Shown here piece after piece: positions 1,235 to 24,595 of a stretch of 25,545 nt of DNA; position 1 is the stretch's first letter, and the number at the start of each line of letters is the position of its first letter. The stretch comes from a virus. The notes under the pieces are model-generated. The model worked only from the letters and a program-made list of their open reading frames with translations, searched no databases and was not told where the DNA came from. The translations under genes and the position numbers were made by a program. Location: positions 1-25,545 of IMG/VR virus record IMGVR_UViG_3300027821_000027. The stretch is one strand, 5' to 3'.

Positions 1235-4200
1235 TCACTGTGGGATTTGCGGAAACTGCTGCATGATCGGGTACATCGCCTTCTTGGGTGCCAAGATCCC
1301 GGTGCCAGTTGCCGTACCTACTGCGCGTTCCTGATAGCGTTGCGGCAGACCCGACAGGAGATTCGGACTCAGCTGCGGATTGCGCATCACCATCTTGATG
1401 TTCTCCTGAAACAATTCACCCAATGCAGCATAATCCCCACGATCAACAGCACGATACGCTTCATTGCGCAAGATCTGCTGCCGCCGTTCCAACAGCTGCT
1501 GCGTCGTCTTGAACGCGAACGATGCCTCACTCTGTTCCGCGCGTGCACTCGACTTGAAGCCACCCGCCTGCGCCAGAATGTTCCACGCCGATGGCGCTCC
1601 GATAGGAATGATGTTATTCGCACCCTCCGTTTCGTAACCATGCTGCGCCATGAGCGCCGCCGTGCCCGCGTTACGTACAACCGCAGGCGTCGCATCATTG
1701 AAGAACTTCACCCAGTCACCTTCGCTGGCAGCGGTAAGTCCAGTGGCAATCCCCGCCATTGCACCAATTGACGGTCCAAGGAACTCGAACGCGTGATCCT
1801 TGATCCGATCATCGATCTTGCGCCGGTCTTCAAGAAACGACGTGAACGGTGCGAGATCCGCGAATCCCGACCGAGTACTCATGTCGATGTCGAACAACCG
1901 GGGTAACCCGCGCGAAATCACTTCCTCGGTCTTCTTCAGTGCCTCGCCCTTGAGTCCAACTCCCTGCAACACCGACCCTGTGAAATGCCGCACCGATTGC
2001 TGCACATCGGGGGGCGTGTCCTCCTTGTTCTGAATCAGCCCGAGGAACATGTTTGCCAAGCCACTGAGCGCGCCCATGAACGGCATGCCCAACGTACCCG
2101 CCATCATCCCGGTCATCCCGGCAATACCAGCCAACGTCTTGGCCGATTCCGCCTGCTCCGCTGGAGTGCCGCCACGCAGCTTCAGGTAGTTGCGATAGAA
2201 CATCTCCGTAGCCTGAATATCGAACTGGCCGAAACCCACTGCCAGCGGCGTCGCCGCGCGTAACACTCCACGCCGTCCTAGATTGCGCGCGATGTTGGCC
2301 TGCGAGTGATCGCCATCCGTGTCACGAATCGTCTGCAGTGCGTGATCCTTGGCCTTCTCGTGCACCGCATTCAGCCGCGAGCCTTCCACCAGTGCCCCGT
2401 TGCCGTTGTTCTGCCGCCAGTTCGGATCGGCCTTATCCATCATCAACTCATGCGCCGACAGCGCCGAGACCAACCGATTGGCAACCTCGATCATGTGCGG
2501 GAACACCGTCGCCGCCTGCATCGTCTTGCTGCCGAATCCTTGATCTTCCGGATTAAGCCGTGCAACTTCGTGAGTTACTCCGAAGTTCAGCAGCGACGAC
2601 CACACCGCATGGCTCATTAGATCCAGCTGCGCCTCGTTCAGCAGCGACGATCCATCCGCCTTGGTCAGCTTGGAGAACTCCAGCCGCAGATTCGACAGGC
2701 TCGCAAACCGCGAAAACTTGTCGCCGCTGGATTCCAGCCAGCCCATGTGCATCAACTTGGTAACCATGCCGTAGGCGAGCGCCGTATTCTTCGCCATGGA
2801 CAGCGCCGCAGCGCCATAACCGTGCTTACTGCCAAGCGTCGGCAGCGTCATCTGCCACGGCTGCACGGCGAGCATCGTCATATACGCGGGCGACAGCGCC
2901 AGCCGCCACGCAGCCGGGAACGCCCGCAGCCGGTCTAACACTGGCGCATCGACTGGCGTGTTGAGATCTTCAACCCGCCCGCGCACATCGGCCATGTACT
3001 TGCCGATCTGCGTCTTGACATCGCTCAGTCCCGGTGAAATATCCTCGCGCAACTCCTTCATCGCACCGTTAAGCCGGTTCAGCGTATTCGACATCCCGGT
3101 TGACGAACGCATGCCCTGCAACGCCCGCATCGACATCGTGGTGCGCTCACCAAAGTTGCGGATGTAGTCGGTGCTGTAACCATTCAACCCGTCACTGGTA
3201 GCCGATGCCTTATACGGCGAATTATCCGGCAGCTGCTGCAGATAGGTGTCGAACACCATGCTAGTCAACGCAGGCTTCATGCTGGGTTCGATGAAATCGC
3301 TATTGGCGATTCGATCCCGCAAGATGTGCATGTACCCCGGCGTGGCCGAATCCTGCGACCGCAATTTCTCGCTAATCGGCCCATCCGCCCACGTATTCTG
3401 GCCGTTCGCATCCTTGAACAACCCTTCATCCAAGAACGGACGCAGCTGCTTGAGCGTTTCCTCATAGTGACTGTTATTGTCGAAACGCATGTATACGCGA
3501 CGATTCTCCGTGCCATCCGCATTCACCCTCGGCGGTCCCCAGCCACGCCGCAAACCGTCCACCACAGCACCGACCCGTTTCCACTCGGCATCACCTCCAT
3601 TAACAGTGAACATGACCATCTTGTCGCCCGCGCGTCCGAGATGCATGTACGGCACTTCCCGCAACCGCGAATAATTGCCGTACTGATCATCCAGCATGGC
3701 GCGTAGCGATCCTGCATCCTGCGCGCCCTTGCTCTGCGCGCCACCCGCTGCAAGCTCGCGGTCGTGGATCTCCTTGACGATCCGCATCGTCTCCTGCATG
3801 CCGTTCTGCAACGCCTGCCGCTGCGTCTTGAGCGGCACCGATCCCATGTCCCGACCCGCCTGTTCCCGCGTATCCAGCTGCTTCATCACCGACTTCATTT
3901 CCGGCAACTCGTGCATGCCGTACGTCTGCAACACCGCCTTCATCGCCTGCGCAGTATGCCGCGTTAACATCAGATCGTGGAAGTCCGTCATGCCGTGATA
4001 CACCGCCATCGGCGTTGCCACCGGCTTGCCACCCGCGCGCCGCTGCAGCTGCTCGGACGTCCGCTTCAGATCCTGATACTCATTCTTCAGCCGCTGCACA
4101 TCCGGCGAATCCCCCGGTTTGACCGGCAACGTCGGATCAACCTGCAACCGCGCCGCTTCCGAACCCATCCGGCCAACCCGATCCGACAGCGCCCGGTGGG

Positions 4201-7200
4201 TGTTGAACAGCTTCCACGCGGTATCCGCGATCCGCCCGCCTTCCAGTTTCACCAGCGTGGCAATAGCGGCCCGATCCGCAACATGCTGACGGATCTCGTC
4301 ATGCACACCTGCAATACGGGTTAACGCAACTGAAGCAGTAGGAAACTGCTGAATGGCCTTGTCGATCACCATGCGCAGTACCTGTTTCTGGTGATTCAAC
4401 GAGAACCACGCCAGCCCCTTGTTCCACTGCGCATCCGGCTTCTCGGACATGCGCTTCGTTGCCGAGTCTGCCGTGCCCAGCTTGAAGAAGCCGCGTAGCG
4501 CGTTAGGCATGAACCATGACTCACCCGTGCGGTTGAGCGGGCTGCGGTACACGGTGGTCAGGCTGCGATTCGGACTACCGAACAGCGTCGGTGCCGCCTG
4601 CATCAGCTGCTCGAAGTCCGTACGCGCACGCTTCCATGCCGGAACCAGATCGCGGATAACATCAAACACCCGCGTCAGCAAATTTGCCCGACCCCCCAGC
4701 AGCCGCTGCAAATCCGGGTTGTTCATCGCTTCGGACAGAAACTCATGCTCGTCATTGAGCGCCAGCATGTGCGCGGGATTGTCCTGATCGGCAATCTTGG
4801 AGAACCGCTCCATGATCCCCTGCACCGTCTTGATCGCCTGCACCTCCACCCGATCCTGCGCCGATAGCTCACTATCCGGACGGACAAGGTTAGCCAGCGC
4901 GCGAATCGTACCTGCGTGCGTCAGCGCATGCGTGATCTCGTGCAGCATCGTCGTGGTGTTCATGCCACCACGCCCAATCTCGATGGTGTTAGTGAACGGC
5001 ACGTAACGTCCGCCATTGAAGTCGGGGTTCTCAATCACCCGAATCGTGGCGGTCGGATTCGCTTTCGCCAGCAGCTTTGCCACTGCGCGAATAATCACGT
5101 TGTGATGCGTACGACCAAGATGCTCCAGCACACCCATGGCGTGCGGCGTCTCGGCCACCCGTGCTGCCAGTTTCGCGTTGTCCAGCCGCGCCAGTCCAGT
5201 CTTCTCCGCATCCGCCACGGCAATATCACGCCGATACTTGGTATACGCCTGATTGAACAAATCGGCAGCACGCTGCTCCGGACCCTCGCCCGCCTGAAGC
5301 TCCCGCACCGCGCCTTCACGCTGCAAATTGAGCGAGCGCCGTAGCGAATCCGCCGCTTCCTGTGTTAACGCGCCACTGCGCAGCGACTCCTCGATTTGCG
5401 CATTCTTGTAATCAAACTGTGCGTGCAACTCAACCGACTCCCGCAACGCCCGCGCGATGTTCTTTTCCTCGGCAATGCCAGCTGCGTTAACCCGCGCCGC
5501 TGTCTGGATCGACCGAACCAGATGAGTAACATAATCAGCGAACCGCTTGTGCGTGGCAGCATCGAGCGTGCCCAACGCTTCCGTCGCCGTCCGCTGTGTC
5601 TTGACCGCCCGTCCGCCCAGCTTGGCATCGGCGCTGAACCGTCCGCCCGCTTCGCCCGACATCATTGCATCGAACGTAGCCTGCATTTCCTTCGGCAGCA
5701 GGTTCCGCACCACCTTCAGCGTACCGGCGTACTTGTGCGCTTCCAGATAACGGAACACGTTCACCAGATTCGAACCGGTGCCGATGCCTTCCTTGGGATC
5801 GAGCGGTTCGTTGGTGAACGAGTAATACTCATCCGTCGCGGCAGGCTCACCCTCACCACGCTGCTTCGCCTTCTCGGTGGCACCCACTGCTTCCGAGTAC
5901 TCGCGCAGCTGCGGCGAATCCTTCACCATCTCGGTAAGATCATCAACGTGCTGCGCCAACGTCTCGCGCTCGCCCGACGCATCGATCTCCCGTTGTGCCG
6001 CCGCTGCCTGCTTGATCCGCTCGACCAACGCCTGCCGCGCCGCATACTGATCCGCGCTCGGCGTCTTGATCTTCGACATCGCGTTGTAGTCCGCGCGCAT
6101 CTGCTTCAACGCGTTGGACTGTGCTTCCAGCTGGGCCAGTCGCATGCGCGCTTCGTGCAGTTCCGGATGTGCGGCAGCGAACGCCGCCCGTGCCGCATCC
6201 TCGCGCTGCTGGGCCGCATCGATGGCAGCTTGATGCGCTGCCTGTTCATCAGGCGACTGCTCGGCACGCCGCTGCGCCCGTGCTACTTCCAGCTTGGCCT
6301 TCTCGACTTCGTACGCCCGCTTGGCCCCTGCCGCTGTTAATGTCCCGTCCGGATTCACCTCGTTGGGCTTCACCGTCCCGGCGTTGAGCAGCGCGTTCAG
6401 TTCCTCCTGCGTCGGCGGACGCTTGGAAAAATCACCATAGGCGACCGGCTCACCCGGTGTTACCGGCGTGACATCGGCCCCTGTCCTTGCGGCAGCTGCG
6501 GTTGCGCGTTCTTGCGCAGCTTGGTCAGCGCCTGCGCGGGATTCGGCATCCCTTGCTGCTGCAGCGCCTTGCTCAACATCGCGGGCATTTTGGCTCCAGG
6601 TCTCGTCGGCGGTTGGTCTGGATTCGGCCCGCGCACTTGCTTCGGTGGCAGCTTTAAGATCGGCACTTGATGGCTCCTTCGCGTTGTATGGACCTTCGTA
6701 CGATTCCAAGCGCGCGATAAGCCGCGACAGCCCCTCGTACGACTCGGTAGTCTTGTCCTTCACGGCATCCCGCGCTGCACGCAACGCATTCAGCTGCTGC
6801 ACATACAGCGTCTTACCCTTCACTCCTTCCAGCACCCGGTTCATGAACCCCGCGTGCGGGCGCTTGGCTCCCGCAGCCGTAGCCGCGTCAATCCACGTCT
6901 TAGCGAAATCCTGCACTGCCAGCGGAGTGTTACCAGTGATCTTGCCTGCCATCGCATCGTCAGCGAGCTTGTTCGCCGCCGCGACACGTGCTGCTACTTC
7001 CGGCCCACGTGGAAGCCGCGTAGCTTCCGGATTAACACCGACCGTTGGTGTAACTCCAGCAGCTGCTACTTCCGCCGCATTCCGCGCAAGATCTCCTTCC
7101 GGATCAGCAGCTATCGCGGCCTGATGATCCGCCTCTAGCTCTCCCCGCGTCGGTGTACGCTCCGGTGTTATCCCAGCGCGTCGCAGTGCCTGTTCCATCG

Positions 7201-8962
7201 CCGTTTGCGGCGGAGCTGGTGGTTCAGGGGCTTCCCGCGCCGCTTTATCCGCAGCTTCACGCTCACGTGCAGCAGTGTTATAAGGATCGGGACGTGGCGC
7301 TCCTGCGGGCTGGTTCAGCAGCGGCTGCAAATCAAGCTCGCCCTGCCCTTCAGGAACCTTCGGTTCTTCAGGGATGCTGAATACGTCGGTCGGTGCCCGT
7401 CGTACAGCAGGTTCTTCCGCTGGTGACGGCTGCAATTCGAATGGCCGCTCACCCAGTTGCCCCTGCTCGAACAACGTGCGCTGCTGTGGCTGATCCAACG
7501 CAAACATTCCAGTCGGCGCTGCTGCTTCTGGCGCTGGCTGCTTCTGGATCTCGTCATTGACGTAGCTGACGTAGGCGTCCTTCAACCCGGATTCGCTTAT
7601 CCGGCCACCCTTGGCAAGCGGACCCGTCTTCATGGTGCGCTGCGCCTGCACCCACGCCGCGAACGGCATAACGCCTTCAGGCGGATTGGCAACCAGCTGG
7701 TCGGTAAGCGCCTTGTTTACCACACTCCCGGCTTCCTCTGCGGCTCGCCGGTCGAACATGTGCTTCCACGCCAGCTGTGCATCGAACTTGTTGGTGTACT
7801 GCGGCGCTGGACCGCCAGTAACACCAGTCTGCTGGTTTATGAAATCCTGCAGCGGAGTGTTCGGCGCTGGTGGCTGTGCCGCAACGGGTGCCGCAGGCGC
7901 GGGTGCAGCAGGCTGCTGCATCTGCTGTGTCGTATCGTACTTGTAATCAGGCCGTAACTCAGGAGTAACACCGTCATTGAGTGCTGCCAGTGCTTCCTTG
8001 CGCCATGCATCCGATCCTTCCGGATCGAGCGCACGCAGATCTGCAGCGATGTTATTCGCCGCCATGCTGCGCCGTGCATACGAAAAGTTCGGGTTCTCCA
8101 ACGCTGCCGCCTGCGACGCGCGCATCGCGTTGGTCTTCATGATCGCCGGGGCAGCGAACGGCCCCATCACGGCAGTCAGCAGCGCAGTCGGCGCAAACGA
8201 CTGCTTCGCTGCATCCCATGGCGATGCCGTACCGGGCAAGCCGCTTTCGAACGCCGCAGTGCCTGCAGCAGTCGCCGCCTGCGCGGGCAGCTGGGTTGCT
8301 TCCGCCCGTAGCACACCACGTCCCATCGCACCCCACAGCGATGGATCAGCGTACGACTCGAAGCCCTTCGCCAAGGCACCCCGCTGCACCGCTGCTTCAG
8401 TACCTGACACCAAACGGCCCAATGCTCCAACACCAATCGTCTGCCCGATGCCCTGCACCGCTGCCGCGCCCAGCGACGGCAGAATGCCGCCACCCTTCTC
8501 CCGCGTCGCGGTGTACTGACTGGCAGCGAACAGACCCCCCGCGATACGCGCTGCTGCCGCCTCACCCACACCGGGAATCAGTGCCAACCCAGCCAACCCG
8601 GCGACGGTAGGCACCATCGATGCAACGTTACCAGCCAGCCCGGTTACCCGGTACATCTCAGCATTGCCGCGCTCTTGTGCGGACTTCTCGATCCCCTTGC
8701 CCGCCGAATCGAGACCGAACGTCTGCAGAATGCGCCCCGCCATCTCGGGCGCTTCCACCATAACACCACGTGCCAGCCCATGACCGATGTCGGTAAGTAC
8801 GCTGTTTTCGGGCAGTATGGGTGCTGCAGCCGTAGGCGCAGGCATGCCACGTGTACGTCCTGCCTGATAATTGGCGAGTGCTTGCTGCGCATCCGCTGTA
8901 GTACTCGCAGCCGTAGGCAGCGGCGCATCCAGCGTCGGATACAACGCGTTCGGATCAGGCAT
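1235..8962 (-). CDS. Giant polyvalent internal-virion/DNA-ejection protein with a zincin motif
   Basis: At 2,575 aa it takes up 30% of the window. Residues about 110-150 are hydrophobic and Gly/Ala-rich. A long Ala/Pro/Glu/Gln-rich stretch with helical runs follows (about 350-1,000). A zincin-type HEITH motif sits at 1341-1345 (His1341, Glu1342, His1345), preceded by a strand-like segment as in metallopeptidases. Two further hydrophobic stretches lie near 2025-2075 and 2280-2310. Phages with N4-gp56-type capsids often carry such giant proteins, described as polyvalent proteins: they travel in the virion, enter the cell with the DNA and combine peptidase, anti-restriction and membrane-active parts. 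Ejection-protein function is inferred from size, position before the fibre genes and these segments. I found no RNA polymerase motifs, so it is not an obvious N4 virion RNA polymerase. The ATG lies 2 nt after the upstream stop. Confidence 0.8.
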   Translation of the reverse strand: MPDPNALYPTLDAPLPTAASTTADAQQALANYQAGRTRGMPAPTAAAPILPENSVLTDIGHGLARGVMVEAPEMAGRILQTFGLDSAGKGIEKSAQERGNAEMYRVTGLAGNVASMVPTVAGLAGLALIPGVGEAAAARIAGGLFAASQYTATREKGGGILPSLGAAAVQGIGQTIGVGALGRLVSGTEAAVQRGALAKGFESYADPSLWGAMGRGVLRAEATQLPAQAATAAGTAAFESGLPGTASPWDAAKQSFAPTALLTAVMGPFAAPAIMKTNAMRASQAAALENPNFSYARRSMAANNIAADLRALDPEGSDAWRKEALAALNDGVTPELRPDYKYDTTQQMQQPAAPAPAAPVAAQPPAPNTPLQDFINQQTGVTGGPAPQYTNKFDAQLAWKHMFDRRAAEEAGSVVNKALTDQLVANPPEGVMPFAAWVQAQRTMKTGPLAKGGRISESGLKDAYVSYVNDEIQKQPAPEAAAPTGMFALDQPQQRTLFEQGQLGERPFELQPSPAEEPAVRRAPTDVFSIPEEPKVPEGQGELDLQPLLNQPAGAPRPDPYNTAAREREAADKAAREAPEPPAPPQTAMEQALRRAGITPERTPTRGELEADHQAAIAADPEGDLARNAAEVAAAGVTPTVGVNPEATRLPRGPEVAARVAAANKLADDAMAGKITGNTPLAVQDFAKTWIDAATAAGAKRPHAGFMNRVLEGVKGKTLYVQQLNALRAARDAVKDKTTESYEGLSRLIARLESYEGPYNAKEPSSADLKAATEASARAESRPTADETWSQNARDVEQGAAAARDAESRAGADQAAQERATAAAARTGADVTPVTPGEPVAYGDFSKRPPTQEELNALLNAGTVKPNEVNPDGTLTAAGAKRAYEVEKAKLEVARAQRRAEQSPDEQAAHQAAIDAAQQREDAARAAFAAAHPELHEARMRLAQLEAQSNALKQMRADYNAMSKIKTPSADQYAARQALVERIKQAAAAQREIDASGERETLAQHVDDLTEMVKDSPQLREYSEAVGATEKAKQRGEGEPAATDEYYSFTNEPLDPKEGIGTGSNLVNVFRYLEAHKYAGTLKVVRNLLPKEMQATFDAMMSGEAGGRFSADAKLGGRAVKTQRTATEALGTLDAATHKRFADYVTHLVRSIQTAARVNAAGIAEEKNIARALRESVELHAQFDYKNAQIEESLRSGALTQEAADSLRRSLNLQREGAVRELQAGEGPEQRAADLFNQAYTKYRRDIAVADAEKTGLARLDNAKLAARVAETPHAMGVLEHLGRTHHNVIIRAVAKLLAKANPTATIRVIENPDFNGGRYVPFTNTIEIGRGGMNTTTMLHEITHALTHAGTIRALANLVRPDSELSAQDRVEVQAIKTVQGIMERFSKIADQDNPAHMLALNDEHEFLSEAMNNPDLQRLLGGRANLLTRVFDVIRDLVPAWKRARTDFEQLMQAAPTLFGSPNRSLTTVYRSPLNRTGESWFMPNALRGFFKLGTADSATKRMSEKPDAQWNKGLAWFSLNHQKQVLRMVIDKAIQQFPTASVALTRIAGVHDEIRQHVADRAAIATLVKLEGGRIADTAWKLFNTHRALSDRVGRMGSEAARLQVDPTLPVKPGDSPDVQRLKNEYQDLKRTSEQLQRRAGGKPVATPMAVYHGMTDFHDLMLTRHTAQAMKAVLQTYGMHELPEMKSVMKQLDTREQAGRDMGSVPLKTQRQALQNGMQETMRIVKEIHDRELAAGGAQSKGAQDAGSLRAMLDDQYGNYSRLREVPYMHLGRAGDKMVMFTVNGGDAEWKRVGAVVDGLRRGWGPPRVNADGTENRRVYMRFDNNSHYEETLKQLRPFLDEGLFKDANGQNTWADGPISEKLRSQDSATPGYMHILRDRIANSDFIEPSMKPALTSMVFDTYLQQLPDNSPYKASATSDGLNGYSTDYIRNFGERTTMSMRALQGMRSSTGMSNTLNRLNGAMKELREDISPGLSDVKTQIGKYMADVRGRVEDLNTPVDAPVLDRLRAFPAAWRLALSPAYMTMLAVQPWQMTLPTLGSKHGYGAAALSMAKNTALAYGMVTKLMHMGWLESSGDKFSRFASLSNLRLEFSKLTKADGSSLLNEAQLDLMSHAVWSSLLNFGVTHEVARLNPEDQGFGSKTMQAATVFPHMIEVANRLVSALSAHELMMDKADPNWRQNNGNGALVEGSRLNAVHEKAKDHALQTIRDTDGDHSQANIARNLGRRGVLRAATPLAVGFGQFDIQATEMFYRNYLKLRGGTPAEQAESAKTLAGIAGMTGMMAGTLGMPFMGALSGLANMFLGLIQNKEDTPPDVQQSVRHFTGSVLQGVGLKGEALKKTEEVISRGLPRLFDIDMSTRSGFADLAPFTSFLEDRRKIDDRIKDHAFEFLGPSIGAMAGIATGLTAASEGDWVKFFNDATPAVVRNAGTAALMAQHGYETEGANNIIPIGAPSAWNILAQAGGFKSSARAEQSEASFAFKTTQQLLERRQQILRNEAYRAVDRGDYAALGELFQENIKMVMRNPQLSPNLLSGLPQRYQERAVGTATGTGILAPKKAMYPIMQQFPQIPQ

Positions 8963-21031: not shown

Positions 21032-21050
21032 TTTGTCACATACTGACAAA
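21032..21050 (+). promoter_or_regulatory. 19-bp dyad, copy 1
   Basis: TTTGTCA, spacer CATAC, TGACAAA: 7-bp arms with a 5-nt centre, 90 nt upstream of the 211-aa gene. TTGTCA could also serve as a -35 box. It is one of five near-identical copies, all in the right 3.3 kb of the window. Confidence 0.75.
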
Positions 21051-21098
21051 TGCCTATCAATCTGCCCCATAGCATGCGGATACGTGAGACTATTCTTC

Positions 21099-21128
21099 TG
21101 CGGCAATAACGCCGCATTCACTCGGAGA
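21099..21128 (+). promoter_or_regulatory. Leader hairpin and ribosome-binding element of the 211-aa gene
   Basis: TGCGGC and GCCGCA form a 6-bp stem with an AATAAC loop. ATTCACTCGGAGA follows directly (21,116-21,128), with GGAG 12 nt from the ATG. The same element precedes two other right-arm genes. Confidence 0.5.
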
Positions 21129-21139
21129 GTGTACGCATC

Positions 21140-21775
21140 ATGAACAAATCGATGAAACAGGTAGCAATGGCGTTGGCTATGGCGGGTGCGGGTGCAGTGG
21201 ATGCAGCTGCGCCTAAGGCAAAAGCTGGCAAGATCATTGCCGCGTTCCACGCGGATAATGGTTGGATCGGTGGCAAGTCGAAGTTGATGGCGAAGATTGA
21301 TGACGGTATCGCCACGTTGCAAAAGATCTGCACGACGCGCGAGTATCACGCGTTGGAATCGCTCGCCGCCGACGCGTACGAACGCAAGTCTCAGGCGGAC
21401 GCATGGGACGTCATCATGGATGCACACGTGGCCGAGATCTTTGGCGACAAGTGTCCAGTCGCAAAGTACGTTCCGATCATCAAGGCATTCCGCGAGATCT
21501 TCGGCGCATATCCTGCAACGTGCATGCGGAACGCAATCAAGCGGCGCTTCAAGAAATTGCCGAACCGTGGCAAGGGGACTGGCAAGGGGATCAAAGGCAT
21601 GAATCCCAAGAAATGGTTTCGCGGCATTAACACCAGCGTCAAGGGATTGATGTTGCGCGCTAGCAAGTCGCCGGGTGGTGACATCGATGGCGACGTACTA
21701 CGCGAGTTCACTGCCGTTATGAAACGATTGGCTGAAGTACGCGCGAAGATGGAAAAGCGTATTGCTGCCAAGTAA
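21140..21775 (+). CDS. Unknown basic protein, first right-arm gene
   Basis: A 211-aa protein I do not recognise. The N-terminus (Lys residues at 3 and 6, hydrophobic 8-20, then DAAAP) resembles a short export signal, though no clear reason for export is visible. The middle is helical (WDVIMDAHVAEIFG). Residues 129-161 are very basic (NAIKRRFKKLPNRGKGTGKG), which suggests nucleic-acid binding. The C-terminus is a helix, LAEVRAKMEKRIAAK. ATG 21,140 is chosen because ATTCACTCGGAGA, also found before the next gene, stands just upstream. The gene ends in TAACAC, 55 nt before the next gene. Position to the right of the divergent region suggests control separate from the late genes. Confidence 0.7.
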   Translation: MNKSMKQVAMALAMAGAGAVDAAAPKAKAGKIIAAFHADNGWIGGKSKLMAKIDDGIATLQKICTTREYHALESLAADAYERKSQADAWDVIMDAHVAEIFGDKCPVAKYVPIIKAFREIFGAYPATCMRNAIKRRFKKLPNRGKGTGKGIKGMNPKKWFRGINTSVKGLMLRASKSPGGDIDGDVLREFTAVMKRLAEVRAKMEKRIAAK

Positions 21776-21785
21776 CACGCAACAC

Positions 21786-21811
21786 ACCAGCGCGCCACGT
21801 GGCGCGCTGGT
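21786..21811. repeat. Perfect 26-bp GC-rich palindrome between two right-arm genes
   Basis: ACCAGCGCGCCAC is followed directly by its reverse complement, so as RNA it would fold to a very stable hairpin with an ACGT tip. No T-run follows, so it is not a standard terminator. It lies between the 211-aa stop and the ATTCACTCGGAGA element of the next gene, where it could act as a processing or stability hairpin. Confidence 0.7.
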
Positions 21812-21830
21812 TCATTCACTCGGAGACATC

Positions 21831-22055
21831 ATGACACTAGCGGAACAATTGAAAGCCAAGATCAACGCGCAACCAATGGCGGTGCGTGCAATTACTGTGT
21901 TGGATGCAGCTGACATAGCGTGTGCACTAATCAACCATGGCGTACCGTTCACATGCTGCGGTACGTTCATTGAAATAGCAGGAGGACATGCCAAGGTAGC
22001 CATGCATATCATCAATGGTGCACTAGCACCGACACGCTGGGTTGTAACGCTTTAG
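21831..22055 (+). CDS. Small protein of unknown function
   Basis: A 74-aa protein (MTLAEQLKAKINAQPMAVRA, later DIACALINHGVPFTCCG). ATG 21,831 is chosen over an upstream in-frame ATG at 21,762 that would overlap the 211-aa gene, because ATTCACTCGGAGA with GGAG stands 5-6 nt before it. The sequence looks like a small alpha/beta protein with a Cys pair at TCCG. I do not recognise a family. The gene ends 5 nt before a strong terminator, so it closes the first right-arm transcription unit. Confidence 0.7.
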   Translation: MTLAEQLKAKINAQPMAVRAITVLDAADIACALINHGVPFTCCGTFIEIAGGHAKVAMHIINGALAPTRWVVTL

Positions 22056-22060
22056 CATTC

Positions 22061-22093
22061 GGGGCGCATCCTTCGGGATGCGCCCCTTTTTTT
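22061..22093 (+). terminator. Strong rho-independent terminator
   Basis: GGGGCGCATCC and GGATGCGCCCC form a perfect 11-bp stem capped by a TTCG tetraloop, followed by seven T's (22,087-22,093). It starts 5 nt after the 74-aa gene's stop and ends the 211/74-aa transcription unit. Confidence 0.95.
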
Positions 22094-22109
22094 GTCCATC
22101 GTTTTGTGT

Positions 22110-22129
22110 GCACCATGGATACATGGTGC
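22110..22129. repeat. 20-bp inverted repeat just past the terminator
   Basis: GCACCATG, loop GATA, CATGGTGC: an exact 8-bp stem 17 nt after the terminator's T-run. It has no T-run of its own. Role unknown. Confidence 0.6.
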
Positions 22130-22186
22130 CCATCGGGACAGTAGTATGTCTGCGGCTGCGTATGTGGGACGTATGTCACCAACATG

Positions 22187-22205
22187 TTTGTCAGTATGTG
22201 ACAAA
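22187..22205 (-). promoter_or_regulatory. 19-bp dyad, copy 2 (inverted)
   Basis: TTTGTCA, spacer GTATG, TGACAAA. The spacer is the reverse complement of that in copies 1 and 5, so this copy faces the other way. It lies in non-coding DNA, preceded by several GTATGT words (22,143-22,176). Confidence 0.7.
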
Positions 22206-22394
22206 TACCGCGTAGAACGCTCTCAGCGAGGCGCGCGTGTGTTTTGGCTACCCCACCACCACCAAGCAGTCCACGCACGCTCAAACGCCTGATTTAGGCC
22301 GATTCCGGCGGACTTAAACGAGATCGTAGTAATCCCTCGGCTTCGTCAGGTGCAGGTGCACACACAGCACGCCCACACACATCACACAAACATG

Positions 22395-22413
22395 TTTGTC
22401 AGTATGTGACAAA
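22395..22413 (-). promoter_or_regulatory. 19-bp dyad, copy 3 (inverted)
   Basis: TTTGTCA, spacer GTATG, TGACAAA, in the same orientation as copy 2. Flanks ACATG before and AAATA-type bases after are shared with copy 2. No gene follows within a convincing distance. Confidence 0.7.
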
Positions 22414-22649
22414 TATCCACAATTCATGTTTAGGGGTAGTTACTGCAACGTATATATGGAAGAATACCCAATAAAATCAATGCCAAAACAGGAAGCGGCA
22501 CACAGATTACTATGTCAATGTCCTAAATCGATGGTTTTTGACCGCCTAAAGCCACTTTTCTACCCTAAACAAACACCAAGAATCAACAACTTAGCTCGTA
22601 CATACATAGTGTGTAGTATTCCGTCTGCATACTAGCACCGCAATGGCGG

Positions 22650-22675
22650 CTTGTCCTACAAACTTGTCCTACAAA
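22650..22675. repeat. Tandem 13-bp repeat
   Basis: CTTGTCCTACAAA occurs twice head to tail without a break (22,650-22,662 and 22,663-22,675) in non-coding DNA. Role unknown; it may be a small binding-site array or replication slippage. Confidence 0.6.
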
Positions 22676-22846
22676 AACACCACTGATTCAAAAGAGAAAG
22701 ATACCAAAAGTATGCATATGAAGGCACAATTATATTATTTAGAGATCAACTTATATGTATGACTTTTAGCATACCGTTCATAGTGCGGATTTAATCTACA
22801 GCACACGGTTACGATTATTTTGTGAAAAATAGTATACCCCATATGA

Positions 22847-22910
22847 ATCTATGCACATGCTACATTTTGGTCGCGTTCGAAGACTTACCATTTGTAGCAT
22901 GTGCATAGAT
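22847..22910. repeat. Perfect 18-bp inverted repeat with 28-nt loop
   Basis: ATCTATGCACATGCTACA (22,847-22,864) pairs exactly with 22,893-22,910. Inside the loop TGGT and ACCA could add a further short stem. The flanks also match partly (CCATAT on both sides). No T-run follows on either strand, so it is not a standard terminator. A cruciform, structured RNA or protein-binding site is possible. Confidence 0.7.
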
Positions 22911-23069
22911 GAATATATGGTCTACCCCTCCAAAAAGCCGTGCATCTGTGCCTCGACGGTAACCTCACATAACCAATCAAGCACTTAGCTTCCACAAACT
23001 CACATTTGACCCATCATAAATGTGCCGTTCCAGAGCATTCTATGTGCCGATAACTAACTAAGTACTTGA

Positions 23070-23098
23070 TTCAACATCAACCACCCCCCCTCTATAAT
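23070..23098 (+). promoter_or_regulatory. Promoter candidate with consensus -10
   Basis: A perfect TATAAT (23,093-23,098) lies 17 nt after TTCAAC, a weak -35. It reads towards the HNH gene with a leader of about 180 nt. Confidence 0.45.
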
Positions 23099-23205
23099 GT
23101 GCGCACTACCTATTGTTTAGTGTGTTATAAAAACAGCACTTGATACACCAAATAGATGCACGTTTCTGTAGCCAATGACTGCTACAAACAATGCAGATCA
23201 ATCAC

Positions 23206-23235
23206 TTGACTTCACTTAATTTGTGCTGCTACATT
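23206..23235 (+). promoter_or_regulatory. Promoter candidate directly upstream of the HNH gene
   Basis: TTGACT and TACATT are 18 nt apart. The predicted start would give a leader of about 40 nt before the HNH ATG at 23,282. Confidence 0.5.
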
Positions 23236-23281
23236 TTGCTCCCGCACCCCACCCACTCAACCTCATTGGTAACCCTCGCCT

Positions 23282-23665
23282 ATGCAAACAGACCTCGCTC
23301 CCCTCATCACCCCGAACGTCGAGCGCAATTTCATGCGCCATATCACCGTCGAAACCCTGCCGCCGCTCGCTGACGCCAAGGTCGAGCGTTGCTGGTTGTG
23401 GACGGCGGGGTACCGCATGCGCGTTGGTTATGCCCACGCGTTGCCTCATCGGGTCAGTTTCGAGATCTTCCGTGGCTCCCCGCCACCCGGTGCGTGGATT
23501 CTGCACGGCTGTCCCAACCCCAGCTGCGTCCATCCGTTGCACCTGATTCTGTTCCAGCCCCAAGATCACCCGCTGCGCTGGCGCTCCCCGGCTGAAGTCG
23601 AAGCGCGGCGCTTCGCCAAGCAGCTGCGACGCAATCAGCGCATGAACCACAAACCCACCGAATAA
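23282..23665 (+). CDS. HNH endonuclease (homing-type)
   Basis: A 127-aa protein with the layout of small phage HNH nucleases: CWLW at 37-40, the 'aHRvsyE' block as HRVSFEIFRG at 56-65, and the metal-finger core HGCPNPSCVHPLHL at 75-88 (His75, Cys77, Asn79, Cys82, His87). These enzymes cut DNA, often as selfish homing genes, and some help packaging. The Asn usually present before the last Pro-x-His is His84 here, a variant I believe also occurs in active-looking members. The gene stands alone between two gene-poor stretches with its own promoter candidates and no strong Shine-Dalgarno, which fits a mobile insertion. A role in packaging is less likely because it is far from the terminase genes. 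Confidence 0.85.
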   Translation: MQTDLAPLITPNVERNFMRHITVETLPPLADAKVERCWLWTAGYRMRVGYAHALPHRVSFEIFRGSPPPGAWILHGCPNPSCVHPLHLILFQPQDHPLRWRSPAEVEARRFAKQLRRNQRMNHKPTE

Positions 23666-23712
23666 GCACAGGATTAAACACCTGAAAAACACGTAAAAAC
23701 AACGCTCTACGC

Positions 23713-23741
23713 TTGCATCCTCCCCCTATATGTGGTATAAT
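23713..23741 (+). promoter_or_regulatory. Extended -10 promoter
   Basis: A consensus TATAAT (23,736-23,741) is preceded by TGG, giving an extended -10 element. TTGCAT stands 17 nt upstream as a partial -35. It reads rightwards into the dyad 4 leader and probably the small-gene cluster. Confidence 0.65.
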
Positions 23742-23845
23742 GCGCCTGTCGGCTGGGAGAACGTCATCCCACAACGACATGTTCAAAACAATTCGACAGC
23801 AGGACGCGCGAGTCGGGTGCCCCCGACGACGCTGCTCAGTTCACG

Positions 23846-23864
23846 TTTGTCACACACTGACAAA
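23846..23864 (+). promoter_or_regulatory. 19-bp dyad, copy 4
   Basis: TTTGTCA, spacer CACAC, TGACAAA; one spacer base differs from copies 1 and 5. It lies about 105 nt downstream of the extended -10 promoter and shares TCACG before it with copy 5. Confidence 0.7.
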
Positions 23865-23911
23865 TATTCACGAACGCCAAGGTGCAGGGCCGCGAGGCCC
23901 GGAGCCAAGAC

Positions 23912-24194
23912 ATGAATCCAAGCAGGAGTTGGCCGGAGTTGTGCCAGCCCTAGCGAGACGGCCTTCGGTGGTTCGGCGGATGGTGAACGGCAGGCTGGGA
24001 TCGGGGTCGATGAACTGCCTCGCGCGCTGGTGGGTGTGGCCGGGTGCATCACCCGTGCCGTTGCGAACACCTGCTGGAAAGATCGATGGCTGCGGACGCG
24101 GCAGTTGTTGATTCGATTATTGGTGACCTGCGGTGATGCTGTTCCTATGGCCTTGAAATTGTGCCTAAGGGATTCACCGCAGGCTTCTTCTTAG
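23912..24194 (+). other. Possible frameshifted or unstarted small gene
   Basis: An ATG (23,912) with GGAG 7 nt upstream opens a frame of only 13 codons (MNPSRSWPELCQP). The +1 frame is open from 23,916 to TAG at 24,192-24,194, 92 sense codons, with protein-like content such as PRALVGVAGCITRAVAN and KDRWLRTRQLLIRLL. It has no ATG until near its end; GTG codons lie in the middle without a ribosome-binding sequence. A +1 shift soon after the ATG would join the two. This could be a programmed frameshift, a decayed gene, a sequencing error or chance. Confidence 0.3.
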
Positions 24195-24278
24195 TGTGGC
24201 TTGGCGTGAAAACGGGATCGTAGTAGCGCACGTACAGGCCACACCAAGAAGGAGCAGCACCCAGCAGTACCACTCACG

Positions 24279-24297
24279 TTTGTCACATACTGACAAA
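24279..24297 (+). promoter_or_regulatory. 19-bp dyad, copy 5, with leader element
   Basis: TTTGTCA, spacer CATAC, TGACAAA, identical to copy 1. Four bases later comes ATTCACTTGGAGA (24,302-24,314) and then the ATG at 24,320, so the dyad lies within the probable leader of the 91-aa gene. Confidence 0.75.
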
Positions 24298-24319: not shown

Positions 24320-24595
24320 ATGGCACGAGCAAAGAGCATCAAGGGCGGCAGGGGCTTGGTAGGCGCAGCCCTTGGCAGGACCGCGCACAACGCGGGCAGG
24401 TACGCAGTGATGGCTACCCTCACCGGCTCGTATGGCGAGACGGTGCACCGGATCGTCGGTGGCCTGTACTGGCACCCGCTGAAGTGCGCGGAAAGAGCAG
24501 TCAAGCTGCATGTCGAGAAGCGGTACCAGAACATTGAATTTGTGAATCTTCAAACCGGCGCACGCGTGCCGGTGACGCAGATCATCAACCACTAG
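24320..24595 (+). CDS. Small basic protein of unknown function
   Basis: A 91-aa protein starting MARAKSIKGGRGLVGAALGR, with a second half that looks alpha/beta (AERAVKLHVEKRYQNIEFVN). The N-terminus is rich in Lys, Arg and Gly and may bind nucleic acid. ATG 24,320 is chosen because GGAG of the ATTCACTTGGAGA element is 6 nt before it; a TTG 12 nt upstream lies inside that element. I do not recognise a family. It heads a cluster of closely spaced small genes that reaches the right edge and probably forms one transcription unit under dyad copy 5. Confidence 0.7.
   Translation: MARAKSIKGGRGLVGAALGRTAHNAGRYAVMATLTGSYGETVHRIVGGLYWHPLKCAERAVKLHVEKRYQNIEFVNLQTGARVPVTQIINH

Follow-up and report, generated by a model that had tools for sequence, protein, structure and literature searches.

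This study concerns a short inverted repeat (dyad), TTTGTCA-N5-TGACAAA, which occurs five times in IMG/VR virus record IMGVR_UViG_3300027821_000027. The complete record, 25,545 bases long, is referred to here as the window. Since the IMG/VR contigs of its relatives reach 61-68 kb, the window is a genome fragment; among named relatives, Pseudomonas phage Rollin is the closest (terminase identity 45%). To the left of ~20.7 kb, every gene confidently called with our custom script lies on the minus strand, including those for the large terminase, the portal, the major capsid protein and a 2,575-aa virion protein. At the right is a plus-strand arm, labeled early on the basis of its gene content and layout, which carries a 211-aa gene, a 74-aa open reading frame, an intrinsic terminator, a poorly coding stretch with an HNH gene, and small genes from 24320 onward. 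The dyads and the other features of this arm are as follows, element B being a second motif described below.

21032..21050, plus strand: dyad copy 1, TTTGTCACATACTGACAAA, lying 90 bp upstream of the ATG of the first early gene, in the gap that separates this gene from the divergent packaging operon
22187..22205, plus strand: dyad copy 2, TTTGTCAGTATGTGACAAA, 52 nt after element B
22395..22413, plus strand: dyad copy 3, TTTGTCAGTATGTGACAAA, 75 nt after element B
23846..23864, plus strand: dyad copy 4, TTTGTCACACACTGACAAA, on the 3' side of the HNH gene, with element B absent nearby
24279..24297, plus strand: dyad copy 5, TTTGTCACATACTGACAAA, 65 nt after element B and 23 bp from the ATG of the 91-aa gene
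21140..21775, plus strand: 211-aa first early gene, without detectable homologues, in the place that family F (see below) occupies in some relatives; candidate regulator by its position
21831..22055, plus strand: 74-aa small early open reading frame, no family
22061..22086, plus strand: 11-pair stem with a T-run after it, resembling an intrinsic terminator and ending the first early transcript
23282-23665: HNH endonuclease gene, between dyad copies 3 and 4
24320..24595, plus strand: 91-aa early gene 3' of dyad copy 5, with a homologue in relative G023

The five copies lie where an earlier note on this DNA had placed them; both arms are exact in all five, and variation is confined to the centre. 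That note also described the dyad as limited to the right arm, and a scan of the window at up to three mismatches indeed returned zero further copies; this restriction was tested on a 25.5-kb fragment (relatives, ~61-68 kb), and the long relatives show the same restriction. At the same threshold, 100 dinucleotide shuffles of the window gave a mean count of 0.59 and a maximum of 2. When all possible dyads were scanned (6-bp arms, gap 0-15), the TTTGTCA dyad ranked first with its 5 copies and was alone, at the top of the list, in having more than one well-separated copy, and no dyad exceeded 2 copies in 20 shuffles. All five copies are intergenic. Two of them stand, as previously noted, before the 211-aa and 91-aa genes, 90 bp from the ATG at 21140 and 23 bp from the ATG at 24320, respectively. 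The same note had copies 2 and 3 pointing opposite to the others. This holds for the 5-bp centre, which is reversed, and fails for the flanks (AYG on the left, YRY on the right), which have plus-strand polarity in all five copies. Since the flanks keep this polarity and element B is on the plus strand at copies 2, 3 and 5, the centre does not show the direction of transcription. No T-run follows any dyad on its 3' side, as an intrinsic terminator would have.

The exact 19-mer (CAYAC centre) had zero matches in the other viral contigs scanned. With the centre left free, the matches listed for the 14-base dyad in viral contigs were scattered and had varied centres, which is the chance expectation in so large a collection. 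TTGTCA-N(3-9)-TGACAA was sought in 50 related records and found in none. Rollin and the first 66-kb relative were likewise negative for the TTTGTCA spelling, and became positive once any repeated dyad was sought. Stretches of 15 records (14 IMG/VR contigs and Rollin), with major capsid proteins about 50-81% identical, were each searched for any repeated dyad. Nine of the ten other genomes having an early arm carry their own multi-copy dyad, with unrelated letters; four records with little or no recognised early arm (G020, G008, G015 and G049) were left out of this verdict. The relatives' dyads are as follows.

G013: GTGTAGGCATGCCTACAC, five copies
G018: GTGTGTGCATGCACACAC, four copies and one imperfect copy
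G017: GTGTATGCATGCATACAC, six copies, one with its centre changed from GCATGC to GCGTGC
G025: GTGTTAACGCGTTAACAC, eight copies, one with its centre changed from CGCG to CGTG
G045: TCACGACwGTCGTGA, seven copies
G044: dyads centred on TGGCCGTTAACG, six copies
G002: TCCAA-N5-TTGGA type, four copies, mostly within GTCA...TGAC
G032: ATATAAwTTATAT, six copies
Rollin: AAGGTAG-N7-CTACCTT (full spelling AAAAGGTAGCAAGTTACTACCTTTT), five copies, one at the opposite end of the circular record

When exact 6-bp arms are required, G013, G017, G018, G025, G032 and G045 have 4-8 copies, compared with 1-3 copies of any dyad in shuffled genomes (10-20 shuffles per genome). Rollin has exact 6-bp arms at 3 separated places (1-3 copies in the shuffled relatives' genomes); its copies are fewer or imperfect, and the dyads of G002 and G044 likewise rest on weaker 5-bp-arm or imperfect matches. 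Over ten genomes, 52 of 57 copies are intergenic, with non-coding DNA making up just 6-17% of each genome. A search of bacterial genomes yielded distant relatives alone, with capsid proteins 40-52% identical, some of them on long chromosomal contigs (L258, L261 and L264, from Marinomonas, Fulvimarina and Aminobacter, are capsid-gene relatives at 42-52% on such contigs). These distant members may be prophages, and related prophages probably exist; no repeated dyad was seen in the stretches of them that were examined.

The unrelated dyads occupy corresponding positions. Upstream of the fam26 ATPase gene there are four unrelated dyads in four genomes, at 28 bp (G002), 22 bp (G025), 26 bp (G045) and 14 bp (G032); four genomes for one family arose in 1.5% of permutations among early genes with an upstream gap (p = 0.015). 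The fam65 gene is likewise preceded in G018 and G025 by each genome's own dyad, at 21 and 98 bp. The first dyad stands in the gap from which the packaging operon and the first early gene diverge. It is 90 bp ahead of the start of that gene in the window and 115, 142, 99 and 98 bp ahead of it in G018, G017, G025 and G045, and the short contig L129 has a single dyad in the same place. Judged from these genomes, the dyads change between relatives as a whole set while their positions are kept. The divergent gap holds a second palindrome, AAAGAATTCTTT, just upstream of the first-dyad place in L147, L155 and L160; L152 has a variant of it, AAGCATGCTT, upstream of its first early gene.

The same gaps contain an asymmetric motif, GGKANNGTAGT (element B), which is common to the relatives, being present in the early arms of G002, G017, G018, G025 and G032 as well as in the window. 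Its three copies in the window are as follows.

22135..22145, plus strand: element B, GGGACAGTAGT, before dyad copy 2
22320..22330, plus strand: element B, GAGATCGTAGT, before dyad copy 3
24214..24224, plus strand: element B, GGGATCGTAGT, before dyad copy 5

In the non-coding DNA of nine genomes, there are 22 copies of element B on the strand of early transcription and 1 on the opposite strand, and a dyad begins 17-123 nt downstream in 18 of these 22. Element B was considered as a sigma-70 promoter and rejected, as an alignment of 23 copies shows no -35/-10 pattern or spacing; it is possibly a promoter of an unrecognised type. Since element B is retained among relatives whose dyads differ, it is probably read by a conserved partner, and the dyad by a diverging partner.

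The first early gene is the candidate for this diverging partner, by its position and by a dyad class shared in a few genomes. Its versions in G013, G017, G018, G025, L147, L152 and L155 form a single fast-diverging family (family F), the members of which were linked by phmmer through L152. The dyad class GTGTnnnCryGnnnACAC is common to the family F genomes G013, G017, G018 and G025, and the first genes of the window, G002 and G045, where dyads are of other kinds, are not detectably family F. In L147, the first protein is 91% identical to that of G018, and the dyad is that of G018; L152 carries TAGGCATGCCTA, and L155 shows no such dyad at the first-dyad place. A structure model of family F is all-helical (pLDDT, the predicted local distance difference test score, 74), with a possible helix-turn-helix at residues 121-139 picked out by eye. 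Assignment to the TetR type was rejected, the rows being weak and their Z scores of up to 4.6 at the chance level for helical bundles. A peptide scan with a single family F protein matched its own contig alone. For the window, blastn against phages gave no direct homologue of the early arm, and neither tblastn against phages nor a peptide scan of viral contigs gave a homologue of the 211-aa gene.

What is observed is that the dyads are multi-copy, have intergenic positions in the early arm and are replaced as an entire set from one relative to another. We consider it likely that they are operators, read by a dimeric early-gene regulator which the phage encodes and which diverges together with its site. 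The earlier note had offered the operator of a phage repressor or activator; the operator part is well supported by positions being kept while the sequence changes as a set, and repressor and activator are not separable by sequence. Under the operator reading, a phage-made homodimeric DNA-binding protein would bind the two 7-bp arms, the centres of which are 12 bp apart; invariant arms with a free centre fit a dimer reading two half-sites. The regulator would act at several control regions of the early arm, governing how much, or when, the host RNA polymerase transcribes the early genes. On balance, repression would be expected, with the start or early elongation blocked, because most copies are between element B and the ribosome-binding site. 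Such repression would include feedback on the first early gene, although the upstream place of the first copy would also suit an activator. Regulator and operator would co-diverge between related phages, leaving each phage with a private dyad. We infer protein binding, dimerization, repression and the choice of regulator gene.

Several results weigh against this proposal. In G045, 3 of the 7 dyad copies are within genes, and copies 2-4 of the window are not directly 5' of any called gene. The search for a repeated dyad found none in G037 (64 kb, early arm present) and none in G023, the contig of which ends before the first early gene. With TATAAT in its sequence, the AT-rich dyad of G032 may be a -10 element or promoter element. 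As to the regulator, the 211-aa protein of the window is not detectably homologous to family F, with which it shares place and similar length, and its structure model is useless (pLDDT 37); the family F model had no convincing match in PDB or BFVD, nor a convincing resemblance to any solved DNA-binding fold. Pfam searches of 135 early-arm proteins detected no recognisable regulator family and one weak helix-turn-helix match.

Other explanations account for parts of these data. Sites for a phage replication initiator, or for a partition or silencing protein, rather than mainly operators, would also be multi-copy, perfectly symmetric, phage-specific and spread through the early and replication genes (N15 likewise has dispersed centromere sites), and the Rollin copies are grouped in one non-coding region, two of them just 45 bp apart. 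However, ParB_N (PF02195) was found neither in the window nor in ten related genomes (the control was detected), and copies stand repeatedly 10-70 bp before the start codons of various early genes, for which an origin has no need, and we regard this explanation as unlikely. Somewhat less likely still are RNA hairpins in early mRNA leaders, serving processing, stabilisation or an RNA-binding repressor by the ribosome-binding site. Many copies are indeed 10-40 nt before a start codon, and most dyads fold (-2.6 to -16.7 kcal/mol; -4.7 to -5.6 in the window). Yet the arms never co-vary within a genome, the changes in the centre are uncompensated (in the G017 and G025 relatives too), the G032 dyad has no RNA fold, Rfam had zero matches in the window, and the first copy, 90-142 bp upstream of its gene, is probably before the transcript start. 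The processing hairpin suggested in the earlier note is disfavoured on the same grounds of arms, centres and the one unfoldable dyad.

That note had also suggested a phage-specific promoter. Promoters of a phage-encoded RNA polymerase, such as the hairpin promoters of the N4 virion RNA polymerase, would agree with the few exact early-arm copies near genes and with the giant virion protein of 2,200-2,700 aa, which is present here as in N4. This is improbable, and the suggestion is disfavoured in that sense: neither the window nor ten related genomes contain the T7-type polymerase domain PF00940 (T7 and N4 were detected as controls); a profile of the giant protein gave an hhalign probability of 2% against the N4 virion RNA polymerase (gp50) and nothing against PDB; and the dyads of four relatives are perfect even palindromes without a loop, unlike N4 promoters. 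The least probable alternative is a host regulator differing between the phages' hosts. The hosts of the contigs could differ, but each phage would have to target a different multi-copy host operator and yet keep the gene positions, and the scattered matches with varied centres among those listed for the TTTGTCA dyad in viral contigs also argue against it.

Beyond the operator proposal itself, we raise tentatively, as the less probable of two outcomes, that an undescribed, fast-diverging family of early DNA-binding proteins (the first early gene, in its fixed position next to the packaging operon) controls a multi-operator regulon, regulator and operators being replaced together, in widespread and apparently integrase-less podoviruses, where a private code could insulate co-infecting relatives without lysogeny. 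Integrase domains (PF00589 and PF00239) are absent from the window, a fragment, and from ten related genomes, the controls being detected, and a literature search did not find the dyads of these phages described. If the private-operator pattern holds true, it would provide at least nine natural regulator/operator pairs in which to study changes in DNA specificity and, each genome's bait sequence being known, a direct route to phage regulators of a new class.

Other features of the window were noted as well. The region 22420-23665, which ends with the HNH gene, is A+T-rich and poorly coding (GC ~0.4 versus 0.58), and may be a homing-type element inserted between dyad copies 3 and 4. At the left contig end, a minus-strand frame with collagen-like GPQ repeats (1-805) runs off the contig and is probably a tail-fibre gene. 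The 2,575-aa virion protein (1235-8962, minus strand) had zero matches in Pfam, PHROG and PDB; its HExxH motif (H1341, E1342, H1345) is invariant in nine aligned relatives.

Among known systems, the CI/Cro operators of lambda are short, two-fold symmetric and near early promoters, by the divergent gap. The dyads resemble them in being short, symmetric and near early genes, again by a divergent gap, but are single copies spread over kilobases before several early genes, whereas the lambda operators are in two clusters, and a CI/Cro-like gene was not recognised here. Like N4, these phages carry both inverted repeats before early genes and a giant virion protein; that protein, however, shows no relation to the N4 virion RNA polymerase, and many of the relatives' dyads are loopless even palindromes. 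The promoter motifs of phiEco32 and 7-11 lack symmetry and require a sigma factor encoded by the phage (PMC4331800). They are similarly low-copy, well-conserved intergenic motifs in a podovirus and are comparable to element B; the dyads differ in being symmetric, and no Sigma70_r2 domain (PF04542) was found here, a search that may miss diverged phage sigma factors.

Cluster A mycobacteriophages have many phage-specific sites per genome, read by the phage-encoded Rep immunity repressor (PMC6550527, PMC9283540). As in Cluster A, where the repressor diverges along with its sites, the sites described here differ between related phages while the layout is kept. Cluster A stoperators are asymmetric, 13 bp long, mostly in one orientation and genome-wide, and occur in temperate phages (PMC6550527), whereas the present sites are dyad-symmetric, number 4-8 per genome and are confined to the early arm, with no integrase or repressor recognised. 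By this comparison, the dyad system would have its nearest functional parallel in the temperate phages' multi-site repressor systems, while lacking the defining features of Cluster A. Temperate phages already provide examples of private operators exchanged as a set, and these operators determine immunity; here a matching exchange of dyads is seen without a recognised integrase or repressor, and the orthologous target gene is kept while its putative operator is rewritten.

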